A stretch of 64,000 nt of DNA, from positions 557,549-621,548 of the forward strand of contig OZ007518.1 of NCBI GenBank assembly GCA_963931865.1, in the 5' to 3' direction. The position numbers and the translations under genes were made by a program. Positions 3,922 to 63,539 of the stretch are shown here, piece by piece. The notes under the pieces are model-generated. The model had not been told where the DNA came from. It ran no database searches and saw only the letters and a program-made list of their open reading frames with translations. This DNA comes from Axinella damicornis. Its lineage: Eukaryota > Porifera > Demospongiae > Axinellida > Axinellidae. The stretch's first letter is position 1. Each line of letters starts with the position of its first letter.

Positions 3922-4860
3922 TCAATCCACTATAGTAGCTATGTCGACGAGAGTAGTGAGTGTGGGGTGCTGATCGTCTCCTCCTGAAACCAGGAATTCA
4001 CCGCTCGGTAGTAGAGCAACTGAGCAATAGTATCGTGGTGTAGGTACCTCCCCAACCTTGGTCCATTTGTCTGTTTCCGGGTGATAGAGATGGATGGCTG
4101 TGCTGGCAGTGTTGCCATGGCGACCCCCCACGGTCAGTAGTGATCCGTGGAGGGCAATGGCGGTAGAGTCTTCCAGCGGTGCGTCACGAAGACGACGCCA
4201 TTGTGCGGGTGCGGTGTTAGTGGCGGACATGGTAACAGTTTGTGGGGTGGTACAGAGTTCAGGGAGGGAGGTATACACGACTTGTTTACTGGCAGTGATG
4301 ATGTACCAGTTGTCGTGTAAGATGGCTGACGTCTTGAGGGCACACGGTACGGGTAGCTGCGTGGCGGTCAGCCATTGCTCACTAGCCCCAACGTGCAGTA
4401 CCTCCACTGTGGCTAGGTTCCTCCTGCCATCATGCCCACCTGCCGCCAGTAGGTAGTTGTTGTAGGTGGCTACTTCTGGTCTCATACGAGGTGTAATCAT
4501 GGGTGGGTATGGCTGCGTCCATTGCTGTGAGGACGGATCCCACACTCCGAGCTTGTTGGTCACCTTGAGAGTGTGTCTGTCCCGACCGCCCACCAGAGTG
4601 AGGTGGCGGCCATTGATGAGGGACATCCCAAACCAGTAGTATTGATATTCTGGTAGCTCGCTCCAGCTGTCAGTAGTGCACTCGTACTGTAGTACATTAC
4701 ACCACTCACTGACACTGCCACTGACACTGCATCCTCCTCCCACGTAGAGAGTGGTGTGGAGTTGGACTGTCTTCGGGTACCACTCCATTCCCCACAACAT
4801 GTCTCTTCCCTTCCGCCACCTCAATTTGAGAGGTGTTCGTAGCTCCCTCTGGGGGCGCGT
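3922..4860 (-). CDS. Kelch-propeller terminal exon, copy A
   Basis: This single exon has 312 codons plus TGA. Six blades are recognisable from the repeated pattern of a hydrophobic strand, a double glycine (LYVGGG, LTLVGG, LLAAGG, LLTVGG, FLVSGG) and a Trp at the blade end (DSWSELP, QQWTQPY, DKWTKVG). The reading frame stays open upstream to a TAA without any ATG, while tattccag lies just before the ACG codon at 4,860. I therefore treat it as a spliced 3' exon that accepts phase 0. Residues 26-27 (EW), the residue before FGMS (W), and the residues after TPR, VPC, APL and RY differ from copies B and C, as do the loops after each double glycine. Confidence 0.8.
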   Translation of the reverse strand, partial: TRPQRELRTPLKLRWRKGRDMLWGMEWYPKTVQLHTTLYVGGGCSVSGSVSEWCNVLQYECTTDSWSELPEYQYYWFGMSLINGRHLTLVGGRDRHTLKVTNKLGVWDPSSQQWTQPYPPMITPRMRPEVATYNNYLLAAGGHDGRRNLATVEVLHVGASEQWLTATQLPVPCALKTSAILHDNWYIITASKQVVYTSLPELCTTPQTVTMSATNTAPAQWRRLRDAPLEDSTAIALHGSLLTVGGRHGNTASTAIHLYHPETDKWTKVGEVPTPRYYCSVALLPSGEFLVSGGDDQHPTLTTLVDIATIVD

Positions 4861-7800
4861 CTGGAATACAGAGGAATTTACCACTCGTAATGGGTGTCGT
4901 AAAGTGGGTGTTTAGTAGAAATTTATCAGCCAGTGAGTACTTTCACTTTTAGGGCAGCATTTTCTAATTAATATGGGGCATGTAATAGCTACAGGCATTA
5001 ATTATGTAGCGGCATAGATTATATATGCACAGAAATCCTGTGCCTATATTTTCTATGGTAATACCAAGAGTGTATTGAACCACAGTGGGGAGAGAGGGTC
5101 ACAGGTAGCGGAATACTGTTCAAATTGAATTTTACTGGCACCAGTACACCAATTTGCATTCTCTACAAACAGTACTGCATGCCCTCGCCGCCTCCAGCAG
5201 GTTCATACACCCTTGATAACAGTAAGACCATGCCTACCAGGGCTTTATTGTGAGTAAAGAGCAGTAAGCCCAAGAGCTCATCAATAAAGGACGCCAGTAG
5301 GTGTGGTCTACTGTATTCTGCTGCTTTTGATAGTATGAGTTCCCAGGATAGTTGGTTATAGCTCCAGATAACAGCATTTCTCATTTTTCTTCAAATTTCA
5401 TTTGAAACTAGCAGTAAGACAAGAAGCAATTTCAGTGATTTTAGCACGGGGGTTTTGTAAAAATAACTTTGCCTAACAATAGAACAGCACTGGTCAATTC
5501 CACTTTAAGCAGGCAAAACATTTTTTTGGTAGCTGTACATGGAGCCATCCAACTAGCTAGGACTGCATACTAACAGAAGCTTGGACTCACCTTTTCTTTT
5601 CCTAGCAAATAGTCCTCAGGCAATTCTCTACTCTACTACCAATAGAAAAGCTACACAAGTCTAAACAGGTAGCCACAGTGAGCTACTCACGCTACTACTA
5701 CTGCTGACCTACTGCTTCTCAACGTAGCTACGCAACTGAACATGAATTACAGCTGCACAAATAGCGCCGAGCTTTCGTACTGCGCGCATGCGCGCTATGC
5801 TGCTCGTAAGCTGCAGGCTAACCGGAAATCCGGCGGAACTGAGCGCTGCACGATATAGAGAGTACTCGATATAGATACGATCGAAGTATACATAGCTAGT
5901 GTAGTCTCGCGAGGCTACGATCGAAGTACTTCAACACATGCCGTCTGCATTTCCGCAGCTTAAGTTGATTCTCAAAAATTTACAGCATGGCATCTTCCAC
6001 TAACCTCAATTTCAGCTGGTTTAGAGATCTGTCTACCAGCATGGTTATAGACAACACAGCGGTACTGCCCTTTGTCTGACTTCTGCACGTTAGGAATGGT
6101 TAACGTAGGCTCCTCCACGTCACATGGTCGCCACTCCTCACTCCCATCTCCCTCCTCAGCTGGCTTCCACTGCCACTGATAGCTCAAAGGTTTTGTTCCA
6201 GTGGCTTGGACAGTAAATGCCACAGCTTCGCCCGGACTGACTTCTTTCAGGCATTTAGGATGGCTAGTGATCTTGGGAGGTTCATCTACATCAACAACAG
6301 AACAGAAATACATTAGACCCAGCAAGCAGTCAAATTACTATAGAAGTACACCTGCCAAAATTTATCACACAGCTTACCAAGTTGTGCGTGAAGCTGTACT
6401 TCAAACTCCTTCCTGGCCTTCACTTCTCGCACTGCAGCCTCCCTCTCTGACTCTGCTCGCTGCTTCTGGTACTCAGCATCCTGCAGTCTGCGTTCAAGTT
6501 CAGCAATCTGGGTCATCAATGTGAGTGATTCCAAGAGCTGTTCTGGAGTAGTGGCAACTTGAAGGTGTTCTGCTGTAGCTTCCTTCATCCGGAGGGAGCT
6601 TGTTAATGCTTCGATCTCTTCACTGAGCTGGTGGATGCTGGCATTGCAGGCATCGATTTGTTGCGACTTGAGCTCTGACTCTTCTTTGTTACTGATCATT
6701 TGTTGCTGCAAGGAAAAAAGCTTTGCAGATCATCCATAACGTTATAGTGGCTACAAGCTTTCTGATAGGCTATCTTGCGTGATCGAACTGATGCGGGGAA
6801 TAGGTGACGGCATCCGTAATAATCACGCATGCATCAGCTCAGAGCACGTACAGTGGACAATAATTTCCTATTGATATTTTGCTATACTGATTTTTAGAAT
6901 CATTGTCTTGTGCATGCGCACGTGCAGTATGAAACATTGCACTGGGCCAGTGTATCAGACAGTATGATATGAGTACCTTCATTTCTTCTTTCTCTGAAGT
7001 AAGAGCGACTGCAATCTGCATCAGGTGGCTAACTTGCTGCTTCTGGATGTTGTAGGAACAGGCCAGTTCCTCCTTTTCTCTTTGTAGTTCTTTCACTTCC
7101 TCGCTCGTCTTCTTTACTTCTGCTCGAGCTTGTGACAGTGCTTGTTGCCGGGTCTGGGCTTCTTGCTGGACAGACAGGAGTTTGCATTCCATCTTTTCTA
7201 GTTCTTCTCTCAACTGTTTGATCTTTTTCTTTTTCTTGGCTATTTTGCTTTGTAGAAACCACACGTTGTACGCTTTGTCTTCTTTCATTTCCGACAGCAG
7301 TTGGCACTCATGCTCTTTGAACTTGAGCTCCATTTTAATGCTGCTCTTCTCTTGGGCAATTTTCTGCACATCTTCTTTCAGTTTCTCAAGTTCACTCAAT
7401 TGTTCTTTTGCATTCTCATTCGCTATCCGTTTGGACTCCTGTGATTGTCTTAGATGCTCTTCACTATCTACCAATCTTTTTTCATCTTGTTTAAGATCAT
7501 TTCTGTGCATCCGTATATCTTCACATAGCTTGGCTCCAGTTACCTTAATAATTAATTCAAGAGAGACATTGTGAACTGTGCTCTATGTAACTCTGATCTA
7601 TAGCATGCTTAAAGCTGACACCACCTTACTTCATTATGGTGAGGAAAGTTATTCAGCTGCTCCAACACAGTTTCATCGTCTGGCTCCTCTGGAGTAGGGA
7701 TTCCTGAGACGAGAGACAGGGGAAAGCTATCACACCGGTATACGTAGTACAGACTTGCACAATGTTCACCTAATACGTATGCAGGTCTATGTTAATCATC

Positions 7801-10800
7801 AGGCTCAGGCTGACATGCAAACTACAATTCAGTGCAAAACAACTAATGTAAATCCAAGTGAAAAACTCACCATGTTTTCGTGCTAGTTCAGAAGCCAAAC
7901 GTCGCATCCCTATTCCCACCAATGCCTGGACCACAGCAGACCATGTGGGAATCACGTTGTTCTGCCACTCTTTGAGCATCATGGTACGACGCTCCTCAAT
8001 GGTTGCAATTGGACGCTCCATCTCAATTGCATCTAATTTCTCCATTTTAATTCCCAGGTAGAGGCCGAAGGCTTTCCAATTGTTGACACCCCGAAGCTCT
8101 CTCACCAGGTCAAGTAGTTCAGGAACTGGCAGCAGGAAAGGTGACAATCAAGTATAGCTCTGCAGCTGCTTAAACTCGACCAAAGAACATGTACATATAC
8201 CTACCAACAGTAACAGTGAGGCTAGCTCGCTGTGAGATTTCACTTCCAGCAGAGTTGGAGACCACACACCGGTAGTCGCCTGCATTGCATGCCTGGACAC
8301 CAGCGAGCTTCAGTCCACCTTCCACCTCTTGGAATGTGGTACCATCGCAGGACAGATCTTGCCACTCATGCTGCTCACCCTCCGTCCCAGCTGGTTTCCA
8401 CTGCCACTTGTAGGTCAGCGGCTCAGATCCAGTGGCTCTGATCATGAAATGAAGTGGACTCCCTTTCAGAATATCCTTGTGGCTCGTTGGCTGGGAGGTA
8501 ATCTCAGGAGGTTTAGCTGCACAAATGAATGAGAATAACAGGAAATGAACTAAACGTACAAAACTTGAGTGACTTGTGGAGGGTTTAATTTGCCACATCA
8601 TAGTTCAGTAACAAATGCTTTATTCGGAATTACAGTATGCTTACCGACAGTGAGGCTAGCACGCTGTGAGATTTCACTTCCTGCAGAGTTGGAGACCACA
8701 CACCGATAGTCCCCTGCATGGCATGCCTGGACACCAGTGAGCTTCAGTCCAGCTTCAACCTCTTGGAATGTGGTACCATCGCAGGACAGATCTTGCCACT
8801 CATACAGCTCACCCTCCGTCCCAGCTGGTTTCCACTGCCACTTGTAGGTCAGAGGCTCGGTTCCAGTGGCTCGAACCAAATGTATTATTGATCCTCCTGG
8901 TAGGACGTCATTCTGGCTTGTCGGGTGCAAGGTGATATGTGGAGGCTGAGCTGCATGAATGAAAGAGGATAACAATGTAGCTAGTGTGTGTACTATGAGA
9001 CTAAATGCACTCCCCTTCCGGTTGATAAGACCACTATCTGGCAGTCTATGTATACTGTGGTCAGTCGTATTGATGTAGTGTATTGACAATTTCTCTCCCA
9101 AGGAATGGAAGTTCAGGGCCAGGTGTACTCGCTTTTCCCTACACCTCACCCCTGCGAGAGAAAGTTGGTCTAGCTATTCCCAATCAACAATTTTACTATT
9201 GCAAAAACTATGACGACACGGTTACCGATCAACCACATGCAATGACCTGACTTCAGGAGTTGTGTGCTAAGATACCAAGTTAATCCATGATTGAAAATGT
9301 GTTAAAGTGACCCAGTCACCCGATTCAGCTTGAGTTTTGAATGAGTAAATTGTGCAAACATGATTCATCACTCAGTGTATTGACTTCACAGTGTTGTTCT
9401 AGTTCACCAATAAACATTGGGGGAGTAACTGTAGTCTAGTTATTTCATGTTACAGCTAAGGCTTGGCTTAAGGTAGGAAGCATGGCATCGGCGAAATCGC
9501 GCAATTTTGCTCATGAATAATCAATGAGATGACGTCACTCGCATACGGTTATATAGAGTTATTAATCTGTTTACGTTTTCCCATGGCGGCAACCGGAATA
9601 AACAAGGGGGGCTTCTCTCTTTGATGCGGCTAGCGGCCCTTTCAAGTTTCAAATCGGTACTCTGATGTGGCCGTGCGGTACTTTGAAGATTTGTTACAAC
9701 ACTCTTCTTTTTTTTTTTAAGTAAGGAGCTATTCTGGCTTATTGAATGTAGCGATGGGCTATCTGAATGTGAATAGCTAGGTTAGAGTGAGCAGAATGTT
9801 TGTTGGGCTGCTGAAGTGGCCGAAGAACTGCAGCCTGGAAAGTGAACAGCCTCCGACAGCTCCCTGGCCAAGGTACTCTAGAGAGTTGATCTTTTGGCAT
9901 TACAGGCCCCGTCCACTTTCGTGTTAGGGTGAATTTGGCTGGTTTGGTAGCTGGACTGGGCTGGTGAGAGGGAGTAGATGTGTGGCCAAAACTCTGTAAC
10001 CGAGAGGTGATCGTGGTTGACCTTTTGGAAACTGGCCTTGGCTTTGGTCTGTTTTAGTTGGTGTGCGCGGAATTTTTTTGGAAAGCCTAGGGTAGCCAAA
10101 CCCGTTTTTGAGGGCGGCAGTGAGTTTTGGGCTGTAGCCTGCAACTGAGGAGAGCAGGTGGTAAATCCATCCGTTGTTTTTTGGCCTGTTTTGTGTGTGT
10201 ATTGATGATGGGGTCAGAGTGTGGGTGGGGCCTTGGAGAGGGTTCAAATTTTCAGTTTAGTAGAGGGCCTTAAAATTGAGTTTTAGGCCGTTTTCAAGCA
10301 GAGAGAGCAGTTTGATGCAAAGTATTGCTGAAACTTGTGTACGCTTTGATGCTGCCCATTTATCCATCAACTTGGTTTCGGAGATCGCTCTACCCATGTT
10401 TCCTACCTTAACTACTCTCCTTCACCTTTAGTAAAATCATGGATAATACAGACTACGTAAACGTAGTCTGTATTATCATGGTAAAATGAAAGGGAAAAGC
10501 TTTTCTGTTTCAGTACAGGTATTGCTGCTTTCATCTAGACAGTTTGGCTAGTGATGAACAACCACTATGAATATGAAGGTGTGTACAATGCACATACGTT
10601 ATACCTGATGCATTTGCGTGTACAAGCAGGTCCATTGTATGCACTGCATGACATTAAATGTGCACGACTCTCAGAAAGGATCCCGGAATGTGGTCTCGGT
10701 CCCAGACCTAACCAACCCCAGCACAGATCGCTTTTAGTATCGTACTGGAAGCGACACACACACTGGATAAACAGTCTGGGAACGAGACTAATGGTACTCT

Positions 10801-11631
10801 AAGAATAGTCGTCACATCTGCACCCGGCCATCTAGACAGTGTGTAAGTTAGTTGCTTTATACACTTGTAGATTCAAGCTTGAGCGTTATAACTGTACAAC
10901 GTCTTGCCCTTCAACTGCACACCACCACAAAGCTTCATTTCAAGTGCACGTTAATCACTACAGATACTACTCTGGGGTTAATTGGTAGCAGCACAGCATG
11001 TTAGGAATTTTGAATTCAATACTCATTACTAGTTCATACCTCCCTCCTGGTACAGAGAAGCGAACTCAAACAGCTTGCTGCTCTTCCAGTGGGTCAGGAG
11101 GGTGGAGCAGCTGTCTGTTGTGACGACATGGAGGTCTGCTCCCTTCCTGTTTAGCTGATTGGGAGACACCAGAAAGAGTTCTGGCTGGACTTCGATGGTT
11201 AACTTCTGCGGTGGTTCTGCTTCCGGTACGTGACACAGAATGCTCTCCAGATTACGTGACAGCAGAGAGTGAAGCTTTGTCTCCAGGGCAGACTTCACCT
11301 CCCCCATCGCAAGGAGGAATTTGCTCAAACATGACTCGGAGGTGAACACGGTATGGAAGAGCGGGGACTGTTCGTAATAGAACGTGTCGACGTGGTAGAC
11401 CCCGTACCGATGCAAGATCGGTGAAACCGCATTTGCGATCAACCAGAGCTTCGTGCTGCTTGTGCTACCAGAATGGCAGACGTTCAGAACTGGACCTTCG
11501 TAGTTTCCTTCTTTGACGGTCCTGATCTCTGTGCTTTTCCCGTCCACCAGAACCTTCGTTCGTAACAGGAAAAAGTCGTTATGGTAACTGGTGTGGAGCT
11601 GGAACTCCTGATCGATCTCAAGACACTGCAT
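3922..11631 (-). CDS. Ig-Ig-Death-coiled coil-Ig-kelch receptor-like protein, copy A
   Basis: Nine exons join in phase: 11631-11040, 8950-8645, 8516-8205, 8125-7871, 7703-7630, 7543-6977, 6705-6378, 6285-6005 and 4860-3922, giving about 1,217 aa. The ATG at 11,631 is preceded by an in-frame TAA five codons upstream. Domain order is a novel N-terminal region (1-197), two Ig domains (about 198-403), a Death domain (about 404-488), a charged linker and coiled coil (about 490-810), a third Ig domain (about 815-905) and a six-bladed kelch propeller (about 906-1217). I see no signal peptide or membrane span, so a cytosolic protein is likely. Death domains recruit partners by homotypic contact; kelch propellers bind ligands on one face. 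A sensor or adaptor role is inference. The link from Ig3 to the kelch exon spans an unusually long intron and is the weakest join; the kelch exon could instead be a separate gene. Confidence 0.72.
5163..5384 (-). other. Conserved open stretch in the Ig3-kelch intron, copy A
   Basis: This stretch encodes 73 residues beginning MRNAVIWSYNQLSWELILSK and is nearly identical in copy B (33,060-33,308). In copy C the matching frame carries a TGA (TTA changed to TGA near 54,830), so it is not constrained as protein in all copies. It also contains an AATAAA on the minus strand near 5,250 in copy A. It could be an alternative 3' end of the gene upstream of the kelch exon, or an old inserted sequence. 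I assign no function. Confidence 0.3.
5591..5632 (-). CDS. Candidate 42-nt microexon between Ig3 and kelch, copy A
   Basis: On the minus strand a tattggtagtag acceptor, 42 bases in phase 0 to 0 and a strong GTGAGT donor are all conserved in copies B (33,540-33,499) and C (55,233-55,192). The peptide is SRELPEDYLLGKEK in A, with Asp changed to Gly in B and C. Inclusion or skipping would keep frame between Ig3 and the kelch exon. Without transcripts this stays a prediction. Confidence 0.4.
6005..6285 (-). CDS. Third Ig-domain exon, copy A
   Basis: The exon is I-set-like: it starts DEPPKITSHP, has the core Trp in SYQWQWKPAEE and the F-strand motif KGQYRCVV. The B-strand position that usually holds the first disulfide cysteine is AVAFTVQATG, with no cysteine, which fits a cytosolic Ig fold. 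The exon enters in phase 1 and leaves in phase 0 at a GTTAGT donor. It is conserved in copies B (34,165-33,885) and C (55,812-55,532). Confidence 0.75.
6378..7543 (-). CDS. Coiled-coil exons, copy A
   Basis: Two exons, 7543-6977 (189 codons) and 6705-6378, encode a long Glu/Lys/Gln-rich helix with heptad character (for example ENAKEQLSELEKLKEDVQKI and ESLTLMTQIAELERRLQDAE). This likely drives oligomerisation or spaces the Death domain from the Ig3-kelch module. The acceptor before GTA ACT GGA and all donors are conserved in the other copies. A lysine run (AKKKKKIKQLREELEK) sits mid-exon. Confidence 0.75.
7630..7703 (-). CDS. Short acidic linker exon, copy A
   Basis: This 74-nt exon enters in phase 1 and leaves in phase 0 at GTAAGG. 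It encodes IPTPEEPDDETVLEQLNNFP and a few further residues, linking the Death domain to the coiled coil. It is identical in layout in copies B (35,474-35,401) and C (57,211-57,138). It is too short to be picked up as an independent open frame, but splice signals and phase are clean. Confidence 0.65.
7871..8125 (-). CDS. Death-domain exon, copy A
   Basis: The 84-codon exon is phase 1 at both ends. It has the Death-domain fold pattern: PELLDLVRELRGVNNWKAFG, the LG-x-K-x-x-x-LDAIE turn (LYLGIKMEKLDAIE), a MMLKEWQNN helix, PTWSAVVQAL, and a final MRRLASELARKHG helix. Death domains mediate homotypic assembly in apoptosis and NF-kB-type signalling. Copies B and C lack two residues present here in the ERPIATIEERR loop. 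The flanking exons are Ig domains and a coiled coil. Confidence 0.82.
8205..8950 (-). CDS. Tandem Ig-domain exons, copy A
   Basis: The two exons 8950-8645 and 8516-8205 are phase 1 at both ends and clearly duplicated from each other: PPHITLHPTSQNDV versus PPEITSQPTSHKDI, both followed by YKWQWKPAGTEGE and AGDYRCVVSNSAGSEISQ. As in Ig3 the B-strand cysteine is missing (HLVRATG, HFMIRATG). Phase 1 at both ends is the classic shuffling configuration for Ig exons, so further repeats could be gained or lost without breaking frame. Confidence 0.8.
9472..10407. mobile_element. 936-bp TTAA-site transposon in the first intron of copy A
   Basis: The element begins GGTAGGAAGCATGG, ends CCATGTTTCCTACC, and is flanked by TTAA at 9468-9471 and 10408-10411. 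Copies B and C lack it at the corresponding place (near 37,240 and 59,200), so it inserted after, or is polymorphic between, the copies. A TTAA target is typical of piggyBac and Kolobok superfamilies; no transposase is encoded, so it is non-autonomous. A related copy lies at 16,188-18,657. Confidence 0.75.
10697..10792. mobile_element. Hairpin element shared by all three copies
   Basis: The left arm reads ggtctcggtcccagac and the right arm gtctgggaacgagact. The interior contains accaaccccagcac and a ctggaagcga segment. Counterparts lie at about 37,470-37,566 and 59,425-59,521, so it predates the triplication. The interior matches the 30-bp satellite at 49,485-50,425. Confidence 0.6.
11040..11631 (-). 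CDS. Novel N-terminal domain exon, copy A
   Basis: The first coding exon has 197 codons plus one base and a GTATGA donor. I do not recognise the domain. It has alternating hydrophobic strands (FFLLRTKVLVDG, KLWLIANAVSPIL) followed by helical stretches (KFLLAMGEVKSALE) and a mixed C-terminal part (LTIEVQPELFLVSPNQLNRK). It is the most conserved exon of the gene: copies B (38,402-37,811) and C (63,401-62,810) have exactly the same length and only a handful of changes. No signal peptide is apparent. Confidence 0.7.
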
Positions 11632-11772
11632 CGCTACAAGCCCTTACTGAGCGCAAAAAGAAACCTTTGCTGACAAAGCACATTCCTCAGCCCCACCCAC
11701 GAACCGCACCATGCACGGTGGGTGTGTCACGTTAAATTTCCACGCATGCGCATTCAGCACTAGCTGGCCCTG

Positions 11773-17800: not shown

Positions 17801-20483
17801 CAACACAGCTGTCACCATGTAGACAGCCTGCCGTGGTCCTACATGCAAAACCAGCTCGACTTCGTTTCGGTGCGATTCGTCCATGATCTGACGACGACTT
17901 CGAGGAACACATGGCGGTCATTGCTAGCAAACTCTCGTATACCAAGTGGTACAACCATTTTGCAGCTTCTTGAACTGTACGTTTCTATGCATGCTCCTGC
18001 CAAGTTTGGCCGTGGCGCTTCCGTTCCTGCTTACAGAATACAGACGGCCTGGCCATGCGCGTCCCGGATTTTAGTAGCCGGGACGGGACGGGACGTCCCG
18101 CCTCCGTCCCGTCCCGTCCCGGGTTTTAGTAACGTCCCATCCTGCTACATATTTAATGTTTTTACTACTTGTTGAATGTAGCGATGGGCTATCTGAGTGT
18201 GAATAGCTAGGTGAGTGAGCAGGAATGTTTGTGGGTCTGCTGAAGTGGCCGAAGAACAGCCTGGAAAGTGAACAGCCTCCGACAGCTCCCTGGCCAAGGT
18301 ACTCTAGAGAGTTGACCTTTCGGCATTACAGGCCCCGCCCATTTTCGTGTTAGGGCGAATTTGGCTGTTTGGTAGCTGGACTGGGCTGGTGAGAGGGAGT
18401 AGATGTGTGGCCAAAACTCTGTAACCGAGAGGTGAACGTGGAAAAGCATCCCTAGTTTTGCAGGGGGTAGGTTGACCTTTTGGAAACTGGCCTTGGCTTG
18501 AGTCGGTTTTAGTTGGTGTGCGTGAATTTTTTTTGAAAGCCTAGGGTAGCCAAACCTCTGTTTTTGAGGGTGGCAGTGAGTTTTGGGCTGTAGCCTGCAA
18601 GTGAGGAGAGCAGGTGGTAAATCCATCCGTAGTTTTTGGGCCTGTTTTGTGTGTGTANNNNNNNNNNNNNNNNNNNNNNNNNNNNNNNNNNNNNNNNNNN
18701 NNNNNNNNNNNNNNNNNNNNNNNNNNNNNNNNNNNNNNNNNNNNNNNNNNNNNNNNNNNNNNNNNNNNNNNNNNNNNNNNNNNNNNNNNNNNNNNNNNNN
18801 NNNNNNNNNNNNNNNNNNNNNNNNNNNNNNNNNNNNNNNNNNNNNNNNNNNNNNNNNCCCTCTCCTTCCTGTTCCCCCTCTCCCCCTCTCCTTCCTGTTC
18901 CCCCTCTCCTTCCCGTTCCCCCTCTCCTCCTCTCTTTCCTGTTCCCCCTCTCCTTCCTGTTCTCCCGCCTTTCCCTCTCTCCTTCCTGTTCCCCCTCTCC
19001 CCCTCTCCTTCCTGTTCCCCCTCTCCCCCTCTCCTTCCTGTTCCCCCTCTCCCCTCTCCTTCCCGTTCCCCCTCTCCCCCTCTCCTTCCTGTTCCCCCCT
19101 CTCTTCCCCCTCTCCCTTCATCCACCCCATCTCTATAATTTGTAGCCATGCATATACAATGTATATATTTTTTTCACCCACTGATTTTGTAAACATTCTA
19201 TTTAATATGCAGGACTCTCAGGTAGACAGCCACTGGCTGATGAGACATTCCTGTCGAAAATTCTGTCTATCTATCTATCCTTTCCCTCCCTTCTCCTTCC
19301 TGTTTCCCTTCTCCCCCTCTACTTCACCCACCTCCTCTCCTTTCCCCCTTTCCCCCTTCTCCTTCCTCCTCCCCTCCCCTTCACAGACTCTTGACGAAGA
19401 CATTCTAAACCACAAGAAAGCCCCCCGAGGATCTCCATTCTGAAGCTATGAATATCATTACAGAGTGCTGTGATGGGTCTGGAGATGAAATTCTAAACCA
19501 TTCCCGCCAGTTGCAAGCTCGTTTCGATGCCCTCTCCCAAAGCTCCCTGGAGTCACAGGAGCTGTGCGAAGAAGCGACATCAGCGTTGCAAGAGTTGCAG
19601 ACGGAGTTTGACTCGTTTGTCCGCTGTCTAGAGAGGATGGCGGGGAAGCTGGCGGAGCGACGGAAGATCAAGTACCCAATCGGCACCATCCAGAATGAGC
19701 TAGACGAGCACTACGTGAGTTCTAGATGGTTGCTGTCGAGTGCACAGTAGTTCTTATCACTGGAATCTCTATAGATATAGGCCACCCTTGTCAAATGAAT
19801 TGGAGGTACATGTATTCTAGCCTCGTTCCCAGGCCCACACTAGCTTGCAATACAGTTAAGCTGGAGAAGGCTGGCCTGGTAAGGTTATCACGTGAGTGAT
19901 ATGTCAGGGTAGAGAAAGAAGATCTAAAATGAACGTGGGGCTCAGAACAGCAAGAATGCACTCTACACTATCTCCCACATGTAGTACATGTGATGCAAGC
20001 TCTAGTCTCTTGTAACTGAATTTACATGTCCGTATGAAAAATGTTTTCCTCTGTAGGATTTCATGCGAGATTGTGAGCAGCAGACTGACCAATACTCTGA
20101 TCTCTATTGTCATGGCAACCGTCTGTCGGCCAGGTACAAGCCCAGTGACACTCTTGATGCGATGATGTCATCATTACATGATCGGTGGGTGGGATCGTCG
20201 GCCAGCTCGGAGAGAGGTGCGAGGAGCTGCTCGGGGTGCAGGAGCTATGGATGAAGTACGAGCGGGAGGTGAAGCAGCTGCTGAACTGGATCATTGCAGA
20301 GGCGGACAAGTTCTCATCCGAGGTGACGACGCAGGGGGACAAGGGGATCGAAGATCACATCACATCGTGCAAGGTGGGAAGGACATGCGTGCTTGTGTTG
20401 TTGTATGTTGTGTGGTTGTGTGTTGTGGGTGTGTGGCTGTAATATGTAATCGTTCTGGTATTCTACGGAACAATTGCACCATG

Positions 20484-20515
<32 letters not shown>

Positions 20516-23500
20516 GCAGTCATTCCAGTGTGGTACCAAACTGAATGCACCCACTCACATACACATTCACACACCCAACACACATTCACACACCACACCA
20601 GGTGTTGTCAGACACCCTGGAGGAGAAGCAAGCAGCAGTTGTCGATATCCAAGACCTGCAGAGATTCTCCGAGCAGAGGACGGAGAGAAGAAGAACGGAA
20701 CCAGCGACGTGGAGTCGAGGTGAGCAGTGTCACCTGCAGCCGAAAGCTGACAGGAAATGGGAGGGGAGGGAAGGAAAGTACGACCACATCAAACGAGTAA
20801 ATGCAAAGGAAATGAGGCCAGGAAAGGAGGGAGGGAATGAGGGAGAGAGGGGAGGGATGAGGGGAGGGAGGGAGGGGTGGGTGGGAGGGAGGGAGGGGGC
20901 GAGTGAGGGAGGGGGTGAGTGAGGGAGGGAGGGGTGGGTGAGGGAGGGGTGAAGGAGGGAGGGAAGGGTGAGGGAAGAAGGGAGGGATAGAGAGAGGGAG
21001 GGAGGGAGCAACATGTTAACACTATTTTGGTCTTCCATAGCACAGACTACATGTACCCTCCTTTGGGGATACACGGTGTCCTGCTTTAGCAGTACCAGCT
21101 GTCTCTTAGCAACCAGTCATCTCACCACCACCTCCCCTCATACATGTACCTGCAGGTGGAATGACGTCAACCAGCACTGGAACTCCTTGTGCAAGCTGCT
21201 AGCAGAGACTCTGTTGCGCCTCGAGGCAACGTATGCTGAAGTCCGCCATGTGTTGCAGATTACTGAAGAGGAGTTTGACTGGCTGGAGAGTTGTGAGCAC
21301 GCTGCACAAGTGCGCCGACCCACTCGAGGAGACTTGCAAATTGGGCAAGAAGAGATTGACACACACTATGTGAGCGGGCCACAGGGAATAAAGTCCTCCC
21401 TCCTTCTGCCCCTCCCTCCATCCCTCCCTCCCTCACTTCCTCCTCCCCTACTGCTCCTCCCTTCCTCCCTTAATTAATCCTCCCCATTTGCTTCTCCCTC
21501 CTTCCTCTTACCCATCCCCCCCCCCCCCCCCCCCCCCTGCATGCTGTGTGAGCAACCAATGCACCTCTCTCCTCCGTCCATCCTTCCCTCCCTTCCTCCC
21601 CTACCATCTCACTGCCTCCCTTCCCCTTTGCCGTCTCTCACTCCGTCTTGTTCCCTCTCCAGCAACTCTCCCAGGAAATACAGGAGCATCAGAAGGAGGC
21701 AGAGTTTATTCAGCAGACAGTGAACTTCCTAGTGGAACACTCCCACAAAGAGCGGAGGGAAGAGATAGAGCTGAGAGCAAAAGACTTCGTACAGTGGTAC
21801 CAGGTCCTCAGCTCGTCCGTGGACACCTATGTTAGCTGCATGCAGGATTCCATTCCAATCTGGAAGGAGTTTAGCGCCCACGGCCAGGGAATGCTTGAGT
21901 GGCTCAACCACATGCACGGGGAACTGGAATCGGATTACACCCAGCCCGGGAACGCGTTCGTGACCGAGAGGAGCCTGGGGAACACCGAGGTAGGGGGAGC
22001 AGGCTGATGTGGGATTTAGTATAGAAAAGTTGTCCAGGGCTCATGGTAATGTCCGGCCAACAGACATTTTCCGGTCAAACACTGGTAGTGTAGATGTATG
22101 AGCATATCCCAGAATGTCCAGACAATACGTCCACACATTCCTTTGAACTGATAGCAGCTTTTTTGTATATGGATATAATCTGGAGTCTGCACAATTGTTG
22201 TGATACCTCAATTCTTTTCGAGGTCCCTTCATCTGCATACAGAAGTCTGGGGAAAACTACATGACTGCACACTAGCCCCCCCCCCCCCCCCCCATCCACC
22301 TCATGTCACCTGACATCATTCGTGTGATGACTTTTCCTGTTTGCCACTAGCCTCATTCCCAGGTTCTCGTTCTTGAAAGCCTGGGAACGAGGCTAGTTTG
22401 CCATTAGCTCTATGGCAGCACAAAGCTAAGAATGGAAACAGGATATGAAGCTGGGAAAGGAAGTTGTCTTCCCTCCCTCTCAGCTCACACCCTCACTCTT
22501 TACACCTCCATCCTCACATTCCCACCTCACCTCCCACCCTCACACCTCACAACTCCACCCTCACACCCACCCTCACACCTCCCACCCTCACACCTCCCAC
22601 CCTCACACCCTCACACCTCCCAGGTACTCCTTCATGACATCCAGGACCACCAGGACGCGCTTGTGCTCCTGAGAACAGCTGTGAAGAGTCTTGCTTGGCT
22701 GTGCGGCCCTGAAGACCAAGCCTTTGTGCTGGGTCGGATGGGGGAGGTGGAAGGGGAGATGGGGGACGTGTCCGAGCAAACCAGTGGCCGGGTTGATGTG
22801 CTGGAGCAGAGACTGAAGAGCTGGCAGGTCAGTGTGCACTGAGGTGTATGGTGTACGTGTATAATATAGTAGTAGGGCTGATGTATAACAATACATGTAC
22901 TACTATACAATGTATTTGAGGGAGAATCATTGTAGTACTGATGAGTGATGACGTCAGGAGCCCATAACGAGAAGGAGCGTCCAACTTAGCATTATAGCAA
23001 CAGAACGTGTTCAGTCAAACAGCAGCAACCTAACTGTGCCCTTATTTGGAACCTCTTTATGTAATGAGCCGACCTTCCTGTACTCTAAGTACATGTACAT
23101 GTAGGTGTTGGCCCCCCCACTGGTTCGTGAGTGTGACTACAGTACAGATAACCCAGTTGCTGTATATGGTCAAGCACTAGCGCTATTGGACCAGACTTGT
23201 TCCGTAGTTGGACGTTCCTTCTCATTATGGCCTCCTGATGACGTATATAGTACATGTACGTCTGAGGGATAGCCATGATAGTACTGGTATAGCATCATGT
23301 GATGAAGATTCAACCATCAGGATAACCACCTGCATAATGTACTGTGATTTACGTGCATAACTCTGCATACCTCTGCATAACTCTGCGTACTTCCGCATAA
23401 CTCCGCATACCACTGCATAACTCTGCATAACTTTGCATACCTCTGCATAACTCCGCATACCTCTGCATAACTCTGCATACCTTTGCATAACTCCGCATAC

Positions 23501-31804: not shown

Positions 31805-32755
31805 TCAATCCACTATAGTAGCTATGTCGACGAGAGTAGTGAGTCTGCCTTGCTGATCGACTCCTCCTGAAACCAGGAATTCACCGCTCGGTAGTAGAGT
31901 AACTGAGCAACGGTATCGTGGTGTAGGTACCTCCCCAACCTTCGTCCATTTGTCTGTTTCCGGGTGATAGAGATGGATGGCTGTGCTGGCAGTGTTGCCA
32001 TGGCGACCCCCCACGGTCAGTAGTGATCCGTGGAGGGCAATGGCGGTAGAGCGTTTCAGCGGTGCGTTACGAAGACGACGCCATTGTGCGGGTGTAGTGT
32101 TAGTGGCGGGTGTAGTGTTAGTGGCGGACATGGTAACAGTTTGTGGGGTGGTACAGAGTTCAGGGAGGGAGGTATACATGACTTCTTTACTGGCAGTGAT
32201 GACGTACCAGTTGTCGTGTAAGATGGCTGACGTCTTGAGGGAACACGGTACGGGTAGCTGTGTGGCGGTCAGCCATTGCTCACTAGCCCCAACGTGCAGT
32301 ACCTCCACTGTGGCTAGCTCCCTGCCATCACTCCTCCCACCTGCCGCCAGTAGGTAGTTGTTGTAGGTGGCTACTTCTGGTCTGATACGAGGTGTAATCA
32401 TGGGTGGGTATGGCTGCGTCCATTGCTGTGAGGATGGATCCCACACTCCGAGCTTGTTGGCCGCCTTGAGAGTGTGTCTGTCCCAACCGCCCACCAGCGT
32501 GAGGTGGCGGCCATTGATGAGGGACATCCCAAAGCAGTAGTATTGATATTCTGGTAGCTTGCTCCAGGTATCAGTAGTGCACTCGTACTGTAGTACAGTA
32601 CACACCTCACTGACACTGCCACGGTCTCCTCCTCCCACGTAGAGAGTGGTGTGGAGTTGGACTGTCTTCGGGTACGACGTCATTCCCCACAACATGTCTC
32701 TTCCCTTCCGCCACCTCAATTTGAGAGGTGTTTGTAGCTCTCTCTGGGGGCGCGT
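31805..32755 (-). CDS. Kelch-propeller terminal exon, copy B
   Basis: The exon has 316 codons plus TGA. Variable positions read TS after GM, C before FGMS, IR after TPR, S after VPC, KR after APL and R after RY. The loops after the double glycines read DRGSVSEV, RSDGRE and VDQQGR. It carries an in-frame 18-base tandem duplication near 32,094-32,130 that doubles TNTTPA. Away from the loops, protein identity to copy A is nearly complete. Confidence 0.8.
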   Translation of the reverse strand, partial: TRPQRELQTPLKLRWRKGRDMLWGMTSYPKTVQLHTTLYVGGGDRGSVSEVCTVLQYECTTDTWSKLPEYQYYCFGMSLINGRHLTLVGGWDRHTLKAANKLGVWDPSSQQWTQPYPPMITPRIRPEVATYNNYLLAAGGRSDGRELATVEVLHVGASEQWLTATQLPVPCSLKTSAILHDNWYVITASKEVMYTSLPELCTTPQTVTMSATNTTPATNTTPAQWRRLRNAPLKRSTAIALHGSLLTVGGRHGNTASTAIHLYHPETDKWTKVGEVPTPRYRCSVTLLPSGEFLVSGGVDQQGRLTTLVDIATIVD

Positions 32756-35700
32756 CTGGAATACAGAGGAATTTACCACTCGTAATGGCTGTCGTAAAGT
32801 GGGTGTTTAGTAGAAATTTATCAGCCAGCGAGTACTTTCACTTTGAGGGCAGCATTTTCTAATTAATGTGGGGCATGTAATAGCTACAGGCATTAATTAT
32901 GTAGCAGCATAGATTATATACACACAGAAATCCTGTGCGTATATTTTCTATGGTAATACCAAGAGTGTATTGAACCACAGTGGGGAGAGGGTCACACGCA
33001 GCGGAATATATACTGTGCAAATGGAGTTTTACTGGCACCAATAAATCAATTTGCATTCTCTACAAACAGTACTGCATGCCCTCACCACCTCCAGCAGGTT
33101 CATACACCCTTGATAACAGTAAGACCATGCCTACTAGGGCTTTATTGTGAGTAAAGAGCAGTAAGCCCAAGAGCTCATCAATAAAGGACGCCAGTAGGTG
33201 TGGTCTACTGTATTCTGCTGCTTTTGATAGTATGAGTTCCCAGGATAGCTGGTTATAGCTCCAGATAATAGCATTTTTCATTTTTCTCAAAAAAAAAAAG
33301 TTTTTCATTTGAAACTAGCAGTATGACAAGAAGCAATTTTGGTGATTTTAGTTCGGGGGTTTTGTAAAAATAACTTTGCCTAACAGTAGAACAGCACTGG
33401 TCAATCCCACTTTATGCAGGCAAAACACTTTTTTTGGCAGCTGTACATGGAGCCATCCAACTAGCTAGGACTGCATACTAACAGAAGCTTGGACTCACCT
33501 TTTCTTTTCCTAGCAAATAGCCCTCAGGCAATTCTCTACTCTACTACCAATAGAAAAGCTACACAAGTCTAAACAGGTAGCCACAGTGAGCTACTCACTA
33601 CTACTGCTGACCTACAGCTTCTCAACGTAGCTACGCAACTGAACTTGAAGAATTACAGCTGCACAAATAGCGCCAAGCTTTCATACTGCGCGCATGCGCG
33701 CTGTGCTGCGCGTGCATGCGCGTAAGCAGGCTAACCGAAAATCCGGCGGAACTGAGTGGATAGAAGTAGCTAGTGTAGTCTAGTCTGGCGAGGCTACGAT
33801 CGAAGTACTTCAACACATGCCGTCTGCATTTCCGCAGCTTAAGCTGATTCTCAAAAATTTTACAGCATAGCATTTTCCACTAACCTCAAGTTCAGCTGGT
33901 TTAGAGATCTGTCTACCAGCATGGTTATAGACAACACAGCGGTACTGCCCTTTGTCTGACTTCTGCACACTAGGAATGGTTAACGTAGGCTCCTCCACGT
34001 CACATGGTCGCCACTCCTCACTCCCATCTCCCTCCTCAGCTGGCTTCCACTGCCACTGATAGCTCAAAGGTTTTGTTCCAGTGGCTCGGACAGTAAATGT
34101 CACAGCTTCGCCCGGACTGACTTCCTTCAGGCATTTAGGATGGCTAGTGATCTTGGGAGGTTCATCTACATCAACAACAGAGCAAAAATATTCTGAGACC
34201 CTACAAAATCACTATCATAGAGTCGTATTCATCACACAGCTTACCAAGTTGTGCATGAAGCTGTACTTCAAACTCCTTCCTGGCCTTCACCTCTTCCACT
34301 GCAGCCTCCCTCTCTGACTCTGCTCGCTGCTTCTGGTACTCAGCATCTTGCAGTCTGCGTTCAAGTTCAGCAATCTGGGTCATCAATGTGAGTGATTCCA
34401 AGAGCTGTTCTGGAGTAGTGGCAACTTGAAAGTGTTCTGCTGTAGCTTCCTTCATCTGGAGGGAGATTGTTAATGCTTCGATCTCTTCACTGAGCTGGTG
34501 GATGCTGGCATTGCAGGCATCGATTTGTTGCGACTTGAGCTCTGACTCTTCTTTCACACTGATCATTTGTTGCTGCAGGGAAAAAATGTTCACAAATCAA
34601 CCATAATGTTATAGTGGCTACAAGCTTTCTGATATAGGCTATCTTGCGTGATCGAACTGATGTGGTATTTTGCTACTGATTTTTAGAATCATTGTCTTGT
34701 GTGCAGTATGAAACACTGCATTGGGCCAGCGTATTACTAGACAGTATAATATTTTAGTACCTTCATTTCTTCCTTATCCGAAGTAAGAGCAACTGCAATC
34801 TGCACCAGGTGGCTGACTTGCTGCTTCTTGATGTTGTAGGAACAGGCCAGTTCTTCCTTTTCTCTTTGTAGCTCTTTCACTTCCTCGTGCGTCTTCCTTA
34901 CTTCTGCTCGAGCTTGTGACAGCGCTTCTTGCCGGGTCTGGGCTTCTCGCTGGACAGACAGGAGTTTGCATTCTGTCCTTTCTAGTTCCTCTTTCAATCG
35001 TTTGATCTTTTTCCTTTTCTTGGCTATTTTGTTTTGAAGAAACTGGTTGAATGTTTTGTCTTCCTTGATTTCCGACAGTAGTTGGCACTCGCGTTCTTTG
35101 AACTTGAGCTCCATTTCAATGCTGCTCTTCTCTTGGCCAATTTTCTGCACATCTTCTTTCAGTTTCTCAAGTTCACTCAATTGTTCTTTTGCATTCTCAT
35201 TCGCTATCTGTTTGGACTCCTGTGATTGTCTTAGATGCTCTTCACTATCTACCAATCTTTTGTGATCTTGTTTAAGATCGTCTCTGTGCATCCGTATATC
35301 TTCACATAGCTTGGCTCCAGTTACCTTAATAATTAATTCAAGAGAGACATTGTGAACTGTACTCTATGTAACTCTGCTCTTAAAGCTGATACCACCTTAC
35401 TTCATTTTGGTGAGGAAAGTTATTTAGCTGCTCCAACACAGTTTCATCGTCTGGCTCCTCTGGAGTAGGGATTCCTGAGACGAGAGACAGGGGAAAGCTA
35501 CCACACCGGTACAATACACACTTGCACAATGTTCTTGCATACACATAATACGTATGCAGGTCTAAGCTCATCATCAGGCTCAGGCTGACATGCAAACTAC
35601 AATTCAGTGCAAAAATTAATGTACATCCAAGTGAAAAACTCACCATGTTTTCGTGCTAGTTTAGAAGCCAAACGTCGCATCCCGACTCCCTCCAATGCCT

Positions 35701-38402
35701 GGACCACAGCAGACCATGTGGGAATCACGTTGTTCAGCCACTCTTCGAACATCATGGTACGACGATCCTCAATGGTTGCACGCTCCATCTCGATTGCATT
35801 TAATTTCTCCATTTTAATTCCCAGGTAGAGGCCGAAGGTTTTCCAATTGTTGACACCCCGAAGCTCTCTCACCAGGTCAAGTAGTTCAGGAACTGGCAGC
35901 AGGAAAGGTAACAATATAAAGTGTAGCTCCATCATTGTCTGCAGCATGCTTATACTCAACCAAAGTATACAGTCTTACCAACGTTGACAGTGAGTGTAGC
36001 ACACTGTGAGATCTCACTTCCAGCAGAGTTGGAGACCACACACCGATAGTCACCAGCGTTGCATGCCTGGACACCAGTGAGCTTCAGTCCACCTTCCACC
36101 TCTTGGAATGTGGTACCGTCACAGGACAGATCTTGCCACTCACGCTGCCCACCCTCCTTCCCAGCTGGTTTCCGCTGCCACGTGTAGCTCAGCGGCTTTG
36201 TGCCAGTGGCTCTGATCATGAAATGAAGTGGACTCCCTGTCAGAATATCCTTCTGGCTCATTGGCTGGGAGGTAATCTCAGGAGGTTTAGCTGCAAAAAT
36301 GAATGAGAATAACAGGAAATGAACTAAACGTACAAAACTTGAGTCACTTGTGGAGGGTTTGCACATCATAGTTCAGTAACAAATGCTTTATTCGGAAGTA
36401 AAGTAGCTATGCTTACCTACAGTGAGGCTAGCTCGCTGTGAGATCTCACGTCCAGCAGAGTTGGAGACCACACACCGATAGTCCCTTGCATGGCATGCCT
36501 GGACACCAGTGAGCTTCAGTCCACCTTCCACCTCTTGGAATGTGGTACCATCGCAGGACAGATCTTGCCACTCATGCTCACCCTTCCCAGCTGGTTTCCA
36601 CTGCCACTTATAGGTCAGCGGCTCAGATCCAGTGGCTCGAACCAAATGTATTATTGATCCTCCTGGTAGGACATCATTCTGGCTTGTCGGGTGCAAGGTG
36701 ATATGGGGAGGCTGAGCTGCATGATAGAAAGAGGATAACAATGTAGCTAGTGTGTGTACTATGAGACTAAGTGCACTCCACTTCCTGGTTGATAAGACCA
36801 CTATCTGGCAGTCTATGTACACTGTGGTCAGTCGTATTTATGTAGTGTATTGACAATTTCTCTCAGTGGAAGTTCAATCAGGGCGAGGTGTACTCACTTT
36901 TCCCTACCCTCACCCTATGAGAGAAAGTTGGTCTAGCTCGATAGACTATCACATGCCATTCCCAATCAACTTTTACTATTGCAAAAACTATGACAACACG
37001 GTTACCGATCAACCACATGCAACGACCTGACTTCAGGAGTTGTGTGTAGATCATGCTAATCCATCACTGAAAATGTGTTGAAGTGACCCATTTCAGCTCC
37101 CAGTTTTGAATTCAATGAATGAGTAATTTCCATTGAGGAAACATGATCACTCACTGTATGGACTTCACAGATTAGTTCACCAATTAAAGTATAAACATTG
37201 CAGAAGTCATATTTCATGTTACAGCTACCGCTTGGCTTAACTTCACTCTTGGTAAAATCAAAGGCGAGTAGGTTTTCTGTTTCAGTATAGGTATTGCTGG
37301 TATTTCATAACGGTTTTGGCTTGTGTTGTCTTTTCTGACCACTATGACTATGAAGGGTGTGTGTGAACGATGCACCCACGGTATACCTGATGCGTTTGCA
37401 TGTACAAGCAGGTCCACTGTATGCACTGACATTAAACGTGCTCGAATCTCAGAAAGGATCCCGGAATGTGGTCTCGGTCCCAGACACAACCAACCCCAGC
37501 ACGGATCGATTTTAGTATGGTACTGGAAGCGACACACACACTGGATAAACAGTCTGGGAACGAGACTAATGGTACTCTAAGAATAGTCACATCTGTACCC
37601 GGCCATCTTGACGGTGTGTAAGTTAGTTGCTTTATACACTTGTAGATTCAAGCTTGAGTGTTATAACTGTACAACGTCTTGCCCTTCAACTGCACACCAC
37701 CACACAGCTTCATTTCAAGTGCACGTTAATCACTACAGATACTACCCTGGGGTTGGTAGCAGCACAGCATGTTAGGAATTTTGAATTCAATACTCGTTAC
37801 TAGGTCATACCTCCCTCCTGGTACAGGGAAGCGAACTCAAACAGCTTGCTGCTCTTCCAGTGGGTCAGGAGGGTGGAGCAGCTGTCTGTTGTGACGACGT
37901 GGAGGTCTGCTCCCTTCCTGTTTAGCTGATTGGGAGACACCAGAAAGAGTTCTGGCTGGACTTCGATGGTTAACTGCTGCGGTGGTTCTGCTTCCGGTAC
38001 GTGACACAGAATGCTCTCCAGATTACGTGACAGCAGAGAGTGGAGCTGTGTCTCCAGGGCAGACTTCACCTCCCCCATCACAAGGAGGAATTTGCTCAAA
38101 CATGACTCGGAGGTGAACACGGTATGGAAGAGCGGGGACTGTTCGTAATAGAACGTGTCGACGTGGTAGACCCCGTACCGATGCAAGATCGGTGAAACCG
38201 CGTTTGCGATCAACCAGAGCTTCGTGCTGCTTGTGCTACCAGAATGGCAGACGTTCAGAACTGGACCTTCGTAGTTTCCTTCTTTGACGGTCCTGATCTC
38301 CGTGCTCTTCCCGTCCACCAGAACCTTCGTTCGTAACAGGAAAAAGTCGTTATGGTAACTGGTGTGGAGCTGGAACTCCTGATCGATCTCAAGACACTGC
38401 AT
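31805..38402 (-). CDS. Ig-Ig-Death-coiled coil-Ig-kelch receptor-like protein, copy B
   Basis: The nine exons are 38402-37811, 36716-36417, 36290-35979, 35892-35644, 35474-35401, 35324-34761, 34572-34245, 34165-33885 and 32755-31805, giving about 1,216 aa with every junction in phase. Domain order is identical to copy A. Differences outside the kelch exon are scattered: Ig1 is two residues shorter (AGKGEHEW), the Death-domain loop is two residues shorter (MERATIEDRR) and the coiled coil one shorter. All splice sites and the stop are intact, so this looks like a functional paralogue or allele. Copy-specific transposons lie downstream of its 3' end. Confidence 0.72.
32756..33884 (-). other. Ig3-kelch intron, copy B
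   Basis: It contains the conserved open stretch at 33,060-33,308 and the conserved 42-nt candidate microexon at 33,499-33,540 (SRELPEGYLLGKEK). Nothing else recognised. Confidence 0.5.
36717..37810 (-). other. First intron, copy B
   Basis: About 1.1 kb, the shortest version of this intron: it lacks the TTAA element of copy A and the 3 kb composite of copy C. It contains the shared hairpin element at about 37,470-37,566. Confidence 0.6.
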
Positions 38403-38590
38403 CGCTACAAGCCCTTACTGAGCGCAAAAAGAAACCTTTGCTGACAAAGCACATTCCTCAGCCCCACCCACGAACCGCACAATGCACGGTGGGTGTGTCA
38501 CGTTAAATTTCCACGCATGGCTGGCCCTGGCCTTATACCCTCCCGCGCTGGACCATGCATCACTTCGATTATGATTCCCCTCTCCCATAT

Positions 38591-53519: not shown

Positions 53520-54464
53520 TCAATCCACTATAGTAGCTATGTCGACGAGAGTAGTGAGTCTGAAGGGCTGATCTTCTCCTCCTGAAACCAGGAATTCACC
53601 GCTCGGTAGTAGAGTAACTGAGCAATAGTATCGTCGTGTAGGTACCTTCCCAACCTTCGTCCATTCGTCTGTTTCCGGGTGATAGAGATGGATGGCTGTG
53701 CTGGCAGTGTTGTCATGGAGACCCCCCACGGTCAGTAGTGATCCGTGGAGGGCAATGGCGGTAGAGCGTTCCAGCGGTGCGTCACGAAGACGACGCCATT
53801 GTGCGGGTGTCGTGTTAGTGGCGGACATGGTAACAGTTTGTGGGGTGGTACAGAGTTCAGGGAGGGAGGTATACATGACTTGTTTACTGGCAGTGATGAC
53901 GTACCAGTTGTCGTGTAAGATGGCTGACGTCTTGAGGTTACACGGTACGGGTAGCTGTGTGGCGGTCAGCCATTGCTCACTAGCCCCAACGTGCAGTACC
54001 TCCACTGTGGCTAGCTGCCTGCTGCCATCATGCCCACCTGCTGCCAGTAGGTAGTTGTTGTAGGTGGCTACTTCTGGGTGCCTACGAGGTGTAATCATGG
54101 GTGGGTATGGCTGCGTCCATTGCTGTGAGGACGGATCCCACACTCCGAGCTTGTTGGTCACCTTGTCAGTACTAGTGTGTCTGTCCCGACCGCCCACCAG
54201 CGTGAGGTGGCGGCCATTGATGAGGGACATCCCAAAGTAGTAGTATTGATATTCTGGTAGCTTGCTCCAGCTGTCAGTAGAGCACTCGTACTGTAGTACA
54301 GTACAGTCCTCACTGACACTGTCACTGACACTGTATCCTCCTCCCACGTAGAGAGTGGTGTGGAGTTGGACTGTGTTCGGGTAATCCACCATTCCCCACA
54401 ACATGTCTCTTCCCTTCCGCCACCTCAATTTGAGAGGTGTTCGTAGCTCTCTCTGGGGGCGCGT
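53520..54464 (-). CDS. Kelch-propeller terminal exon, copy C
   Basis: The exon has 314 codons plus TGA. Variable positions read VD after GM, Y before FGMS, RH after TPR, N after VPC, ER after APL and Y after RY. Loops after the double glycines read YSVSDSVSED, HDGSRQ, LHDN and EDQPFR; it has a three-residue STD insertion after DRHT. Away from these positions it is nearly identical to copies A and B. Confidence 0.8.
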   Translation of the reverse strand, partial: TRPQRELRTPLKLRWRKGRDMLWGMVDYPNTVQLHTTLYVGGGYSVSDSVSEDCTVLQYECSTDSWSKLPEYQYYYFGMSLINGRHLTLVGGRDRHTSTDKVTNKLGVWDPSSQQWTQPYPPMITPRRHPEVATYNNYLLAAGGHDGSRQLATVEVLHVGASEQWLTATQLPVPCNLKTSAILHDNWYVITASKQVMYTSLPELCTTPQTVTMSATNTTPAQWRRLRDAPLERSTAIALHGSLLTVGGLHDNTASTAIHLYHPETDEWTKVGKVPTRRYYCSVTLLPSGEFLVSGGEDQPFRLTTLVDIATIVD

Positions 54465-63401: not shown

Positions 63402-63539
63402 CGCTACAAGCCCTTACTAAGCGCAAAAACCTTTGCTGACAAAGCACATTCCTCAGCCCCACCCACGAACCGCATCATGCACGGTGGGTGTGTCACGTTA
63501 AATTTCCACGCATGCGCATTCAGCACTAGCTGTCCCTGG

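Follow-up and report, generated by a model that had tools for sequence, protein, structure and literature searches.

A tandem cluster of kelch genes and the family to which it belongs

We analysed a 64,000-nucleotide stretch of the genome of the sponge Axinella damicornis (assembly GCA_963931865.1, contig OZ007518.1, positions 557,549 to 621,548)—hereafter the window—in which three tandem gene copies, termed A, B and C, lie on the minus strand; the whole genome measures 226 megabases (Mb). Each copy is closed by one single exon of 312-316 codons encoding a kelch domain, found on the minus strand at 3922-4860 in copy A (six blades, the C-terminal exon with its stop codon), at 31805-32755 in copy B and at 53520-54464 in copy C. 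All three exons consist of one open frame, preceded by an AG acceptor (CCTCTGTATTCCAG followed by ACG) and terminated by TGA. An earlier sequence-only reading had described them as nearly identical except at equivalent positions of each blade, and the residues and codons it named are indeed present, with GAGTGG, ACGTCG and GTGGAT at 4785-4780, 32680-32675 and 54389-54384, respectively. The three-copy observation is real, but it fell short as to size: copies A, B and C represent a small part of a much bigger family, with approximately 70 related kelch exons in the genome (127 scored matches listed of 486 candidates). Among the matches listed, 14 nearly full-length copies that are at least 79% identical make up clade 1, and two broken kelch fragments, 80-81% identical, stand beyond these 14. 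The next 55 matches listed are 43-52% identical, and 48 of these 55 are located at 8.4-10.6 Mb on one contig, the window's own. More distant kelch genes form big arrays on contigs C8 (3.5-4.2 Mb), C10 (10.1-10.3 Mb), C14 (0.37-0.43 Mb) and C1.

Variable residues cluster on one face of a predicted six-bladed propeller

Repeated kelch motifs were confirmed by profile comparison (PF01344, E 8.1e-19, 67.2 bits against a Pfam cut-off of 20.1), and the predicted structure of the kelch exon is a six-bladed propeller with a predicted local distance difference test score (pLDDT) of 91. In the kelch proteins KEAP1 and KLHL20, the substrate face is formed by the DA and BC loops, as given in the available text of PMC6720452 and PMC4668279. 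The placement of the variable sites in these same loops, proposed from the letters of the sequence, is borne out on the predicted structure—with DA/BC boundaries placed by hand wherever the strands assigned by DSSP merged. Across the gap-free positions of copies A, B and C, 43 are variable, comprising 33 in DA/BC loops and 10 elsewhere. The agreement is complete at the sites of recurrent selection described below, since all 16 found in all three clades tested and all 29 found in at least two clades fall in DA/BC loops, against a background of 106 of 292 positions, and not a single recurrent selected site was found in the AB and CD loops. The variable sites are thus clustered in the DA/BC loops rather than evenly scattered, although single clades have a few off-face sites. 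Residues at the hot sites are enriched in Tyr (13.9% vs 2.7%), Arg, Asp, Glu and Ser, and the BC loops vary in length too.

Diversifying selection on the DA/BC face

Within the window, the face carries 110.8 replacement and 9.2 silent changes over 111 codons and the rest of the kelch exon 20.0 and 17.0 over 197 codons (three pairs summed in each case, the pairs not being independent of one another), which corresponds to ratios of replacement to silent rates (dN/dS) of 3.92 and 0.38, respectively. The silent rate itself is unchanged between the two parts, at 0.041 for the face and 0.039 for the rest of the kelch exon, and seven other exons of the window have dN/dS values of 0.23-0.61. Where the sequence-only reading had set a silent rate as high as the replacement rate as the outcome that would speak against it, the loops show a silent rate of about one quarter of the replacement rate.

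Codon tests were then extended to the family, with 69 of the 70 kelch copies in the alignment (L078 was dropped) and three groups analysed: clade 1 (14 copies), clade A (28, including L073 and L077 from other contigs) and clade B (21)—in total 63 of the 69 aligned copies, the six that fall outside all three clades being excluded. Allowing a class of codons with dN/dS (omega) above 1 improved the fit massively, with twice the log-likelihood difference (2dlnL) at 510 in clade 1, 539 in clade A and 825 in clade B, and codons were assigned to this class with posterior >0.95 at 40 of 311, 42 of 313 and 46 of 297 positions, respectively. Alignment artefact as the source of the signal was rejected, as the signal survives when columns with gaps are left out and the tree is either built from the frame alone or a star (2dlnL 331-521, computed without L031 and L064); recombination as its cause was likewise set aside, the four-gamete test being weak and confined to clade A. 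Moreover, 16 of the 292 shared columns are selected in all three clades, compared to 0.63 on average and never more than 5 over 20,000 permutations. In clade B, the six closest pairs differ at 1.0-1.2% of the frame and at 30-46% of hot-site residues, a comparison that is partly circular because hot sites are here, as in the four-gamete comparison, the union over clades.

We also examined database relatives, in all cases at the amino-acid level. Two clusters with 50 and 21 members, whose proteins are approximately 50% identical to the window copies, have 27 and 24, respectively, of their 30 most variable sites in DA/BC loops. The signal thus goes beyond chance, because two further subfamilies of this genome and these database clusters are hot at the same columns, and diversifying selection on the DA/BC face is strongly supported. 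Additionally, there are 14 close database copies, six of which are identical to copies of this genome, with the remaining eight not among its 14 clade 1 copies. When compared to their nearest counterparts, these eight differ at 17-28 of about 109 face residues and at 3-20 of about 180 others. Because their frames are near-identical, they probably come from further haplotypes or individuals of this species, with P0014, at 20 frame differences, the least certain case.

Death/Ig and kinase heads upstream of the kelch exons

In copies A, B and C, the exons upstream of the kelch exon follow a constant 5' to 3' order: an N-terminal domain, two immunoglobulin (Ig) domains, a Death domain, two coiled-coil-like exons, a third Ig domain and, finally, kelch. 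All lie on the minus strand, and their coordinates are match or open-frame limits, not splice sites. In copy C, this series comprises the N-terminal domain exon (62799-63413, starting near MQCLEIDQEF), Ig domain 1 (58112-58618, Ig_3 E 6.6e-10), Ig domain 2 (57659-58111, Ig_3 E 9.4e-10), the Death domain (57350-57658, PF00531 E 3.5e-7, 30.7 bits against a curated cut-off of 22.6), coiled-coil-like exon 1 (56388-57101, an open frame with ERM_helical below cut-off), coiled-coil-like exon 2 (55872-56243, an open frame with no Pfam family above cut-off) and Ig domain 3 (55499-55855, Ig_3 E 9e-14, an open frame). The corresponding exons of copy B are found at 37800-38414 (N-terminal domain) and, by match limits, at 36366-36864 (Ig 1), 35923-36362 (Ig 2), 35616-35923 (Death), 34663-35363 and 34226-34590 (coiled-coil-like exons 1 and 2) and 33851-34208 (Ig 3). 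In copy A, they are located at 11029-11643 (N-terminal domain, no Pfam family above cut-off) and, again by match limits, at 8598-9097 (Ig 1), 8196-8586 (Ig 2), 7844-8148 (Death, with a TGA directly before the domain and the domain itself open), 6868-7582 and 6360-6729 (coiled-coil-like exons 1 and 2) and 5972-6310 (Ig 3). Their order, strand and spacing suggest that the upstream exons and the kelch exon form one transcript. The Death match passes the Pfam cut-off, which would place the genes among Death-domain signalling proteins, with both signalling and splicing to the kelch exon predicted; the two exons between the Death domain and Ig 3 are, in our reading, a putative coiled coil, the Pfam hits being below cut-off. 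A dense tandem array of at least 30 Death-domain matches was also observed on contig C4 (13.52-13.67 Mb).

The N-terminal domain, 199 residues long, has 296 database relatives; no Pfam family was found above cut-off (stray Pfam hits occur, the commonest in 3 of 71 members), and no PDB sequence at E<=5. Contig C8 holds, near 2.12-2.35 Mb, a tandem array of weak matches to it (~29-34% identity), with Death matches in the same region. Upstream of one clade 1 kelch exon (C14:349600), the Death match has eight Ig matches before it, and a further Ig match comes after the coiled coils. In copy C, we saw no membrane-like segment in any of the eight exons, and its three Ig domains lack, again in our reading, a cysteine in the B-strand region, where one is usual; together, these two features suggest that the window-type protein is cytosolic, although exons may have been missed.

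Other kelch exons are preceded by a protein kinase domain (PF00069, E 3.7e-27 in L080, 2.4e-24 in L079 and 2.2e-24 in L084); a coiled-coil-like stretch follows the kinase in L084 and, in L081, a match to the kinase tail. To describe these upstream parts, termed heads, we took the first 69 of the 127 listed kelch matches (67 in the alignment and two partial exons) together with 37 of 70 N-terminal matches, 33 of 150 Death matches and 33 of 150 kinase matches (two overlapping ones merged, leaving 32 places). An N-terminal-domain and/or Death exon lies upstream on the same strand in 34 cases and a kinase in 22, while both head kinds together were found upstream of none of the 69 kelch exons. The 34 Death-type heads split into 22 with the N-terminal and Death exons in that order, seven with the N-terminal exon only and five with Death only; as head matches were picked by eye, mostly near kelch clusters, 'only' here and 'none found' below are not firm, and C5:11873863, counted as N-terminal only, has a Death match too. 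The opposite-strand control, which drew on 41 of 70 N-terminal and 36 of 150 Death matches, placed N-terminal and Death exons upstream of 0 and 2 of the 69. Two clade 1 genes carry kinase heads with 85-86% identity to the clade 2B query, while the kelch domains are 49% identical; where different heads occur within one clade, the kelch domains beneath them show 88-89% identity. The simplest reading is that kelch exons would have been exchanged, or their frame homogenised, across head types within the chromosomal cluster. In several cases within the distant arrays, kinase and kelch repeats occur in single long open frames, e.g., C14:390823-392961 (835 amino acids).

A candidate family of germline-encoded non-self receptors

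We consider that these genes form a germline-encoded receptor family, probably cytosolic, that senses non-self through a diversifying kelch face; to this reading we assign a probability of about 0.68. Under this model, the kelch exon would be the variable recognition end of a multigene receptor family, in which the DA/BC-loop face of the six-bladed propeller diversifies under strong selection while the frame and the heads are conserved. A microbial or foreign molecule, once bound, would draw the heads together via their coiled coils, and output would proceed through the Death domain in the window type or through the protein kinase in other members. Of this model, computation supports the modelled propeller fold, the selection and where its sites lie, the order of the exons and the existence of two head types; splicing into a single protein, location in the cytosol, variation within the species, ligand binding, clustering and an immune output are inferred. 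A more far-reaching version would be an individual-specific non-self repertoire in an animal, its faces diversified codon by codon, partly by localised multi-base mutation, and its kelch exons exchanged between Death and kinase heads—one repertoire with two outputs; we regard this version as unlikely.

Several observations weigh against the non-self receptor model. The receptor function is read from genes and a predicted structure, and strong selection on a face would arise outside immunity too. The omega tests were run with our own codon mixture code, without simulated nulls, and gene exchange among copies could inflate them; the four-gamete signal is weak and restricted to clade A (P 0.008, with 0.12 in clade B and 0.98 in clade 1). 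Selected sites off the face occur within single clades (8 of 40, 5 of 35 and 5 of 45). In clade A, two pairs at 0.4-0.8% frame difference show zero hot-site difference, behaving as fresh duplicates would. No head was found for 13 of the 69 kelch exons. Finally, the broken kelch fragments C14:332101-332439 and C14:352866-353252 contain TAG and are located 2.3-2.7 kilobases downstream of intact copies.

Relation to known systems

The HNWD family of Podospora anserina (HET-D and HET-E, with NACHT-WD40 architecture) is likewise a multigene, beta-propeller family linked to non-self recognition, and its positively selected sites fall in the strand d-to-a loop between successive repeats and in the b-c turn (both according to the available text of PMC1805685). 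These are the same two loops that hold 29 of 29 recurrent sites in the kelch family. The differences are equally clear: HNWD proteins have WD40 repeats, near-identical and exchanged between genes, together with NACHT, whereas the kelch family has diverged blades and Death/Ig or kinase heads, and is found in an animal. NACHT gave no match in the exons scanned, and WD40 hits there were weak and below cut-off (E 0.026 and 0.25). The kelch family is closest by logic to the fungal HNWD family, yet it is not a member, because a NACHT match in the exons scanned and a WD40 architecture are both lacking. If the non-self receptor model is correct, the kelch propeller would be an antibody-like variable surface in an animal—with a fixed frame, hot positions rich in Tyr, Arg, Ser and Asp, and Death or kinase heads. 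It would also mean that the fungal HNWD logic was invented twice, independently, and would give a concrete candidate for the recognition of microbes or foreign tissue in such an animal.

This fungal parallel also bears on the alternative that best withstands the evidence, i.e., allorecognition, in which the faces would recognise conspecific cells and rare types would be favoured within the species, as for fungal incompatibility genes. The nearest functional parallel, het-d/het-e, is an allorecognition family in the available text of PMC1805685, and the database copies that share a frame and carry other faces, probably from the same species, would fit this alternative. Nevertheless, approximately 70 copies over one contig and several others fit many ligands better than one self-marker, and the copy C exons seen show no membrane-like segment; we consider allorecognition a minor possibility.

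KEAP1 and KLHL20 share the six-bladed kelch fold and the DA/BC substrate face (as far as the available text of their sources goes), and by analogy with these BTB-kelch E3 adaptors the propellers could bring host or pathogen proteins to degradation, with a face that tracks changing substrates. The window family differs from them in being large and varied at the face and in having no BTB or BACK match before kelch in the upstream exons scanned (some short open frames were outside the scan). F-box and other ubiquitin-ligase domains were not found in the exons scanned either, and the heads are Death or kinase, which leaves the adaptor role with little probability.

Further likenesses concern the heads. 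Sponge Death-domain NLRs (NLRD) are also an expanded family with a Death-domain head (PMC12909245, available text). The NACHT and LRR domains of animal NLRs gave no match in the exons scanned of the kelch genes. MALT1 has the architecture Death, Ig, Ig, paracaspase, Ig. The window genes resemble it in combining Death and Ig domains; no caspase-like domain was matched in the exons scanned, and a coiled coil and kelch are present instead. In two sponges, kelch-motif genes and Death-domain genes are separate entries among genes responsive to microbial molecules, and the architecture reported here is not described in the available text of that study (PMC6208332). Such a kelch family was absent from the titles and abstract openings of the papers listed in literature searches, each list holding at most 8 to 20 papers, a scope that left out most subscription papers and all bioRxiv preprints. 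A viral origin was discarded: two stretches matched a pattern in viral contigs, and neither encodes a relative.

Selection versus localised mutation at the hot codons

The sequence-only reading had proposed diversifying selection or targeted diversification of the face. Selection is strongly supported, as shown above; targeted mutation is not needed, because fourfold sites next to hot codons show little or no rise—0.060 near (within 3 codons of a hot codon) against 0.085 far in clade 1, 0.104 against 0.093 in clade A and 0.034 against 0.026 in clade B, hot codons here being those of the other clades alone. A mechanism targeting particular codons could still generate the variation, leaving selection merely to sort it, and two observations would fit such a process. 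Silent third-base differences at hot codons with differing residues exceed those of the frame (0.114 against 0.079 in clade 1, 0.188 against 0.104 in clade A and 0.193 against 0.030 in clade B; 1.4-, 1.8- and 6.4-fold, respectively), an excess located mostly inside the codon and, in clade B, also in its 5' neighbours. Moreover, many codon changes span two or three bases even between close copies, with multi-base changes accounting for 82 of 157 replacement differences at the hot codons of clade B. However, third bases at hot codons change less than first and second bases (and, with replacement changes included, more than distant third bases), dS in the window is the same on the face and in the frame, and the neighbouring fourfold sites behave as described. 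The silent excess would be explained by ordinary multi-base mutations that selection favoured, or by older variation retained at these codons, and we judge localised mutation very unlikely. Relaxed constraint in tolerant loops, or errors of alignment or assembly, is extremely improbable: BC-loop length variation would agree with it, but a window face dN about 4 times dS goes beyond neutrality, the signal persists on gap-free columns, the AB and CD loops have no recurrent sites and the same pattern is found in database proteins.

Other features of the window

A run of N occupies positions 18658-18857. Two weak C2-domain matches, just under the Pfam cut-off, were found on the minus strand between copies B and C (40369-41028 and 47054-47743), surrounded by long simple repeats. 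A weak match to a nesprin-like spectrin repeat, below cut-off, is located on the plus strand at 21552-22007, and the interval between copies A and B may hold a gene on that strand.
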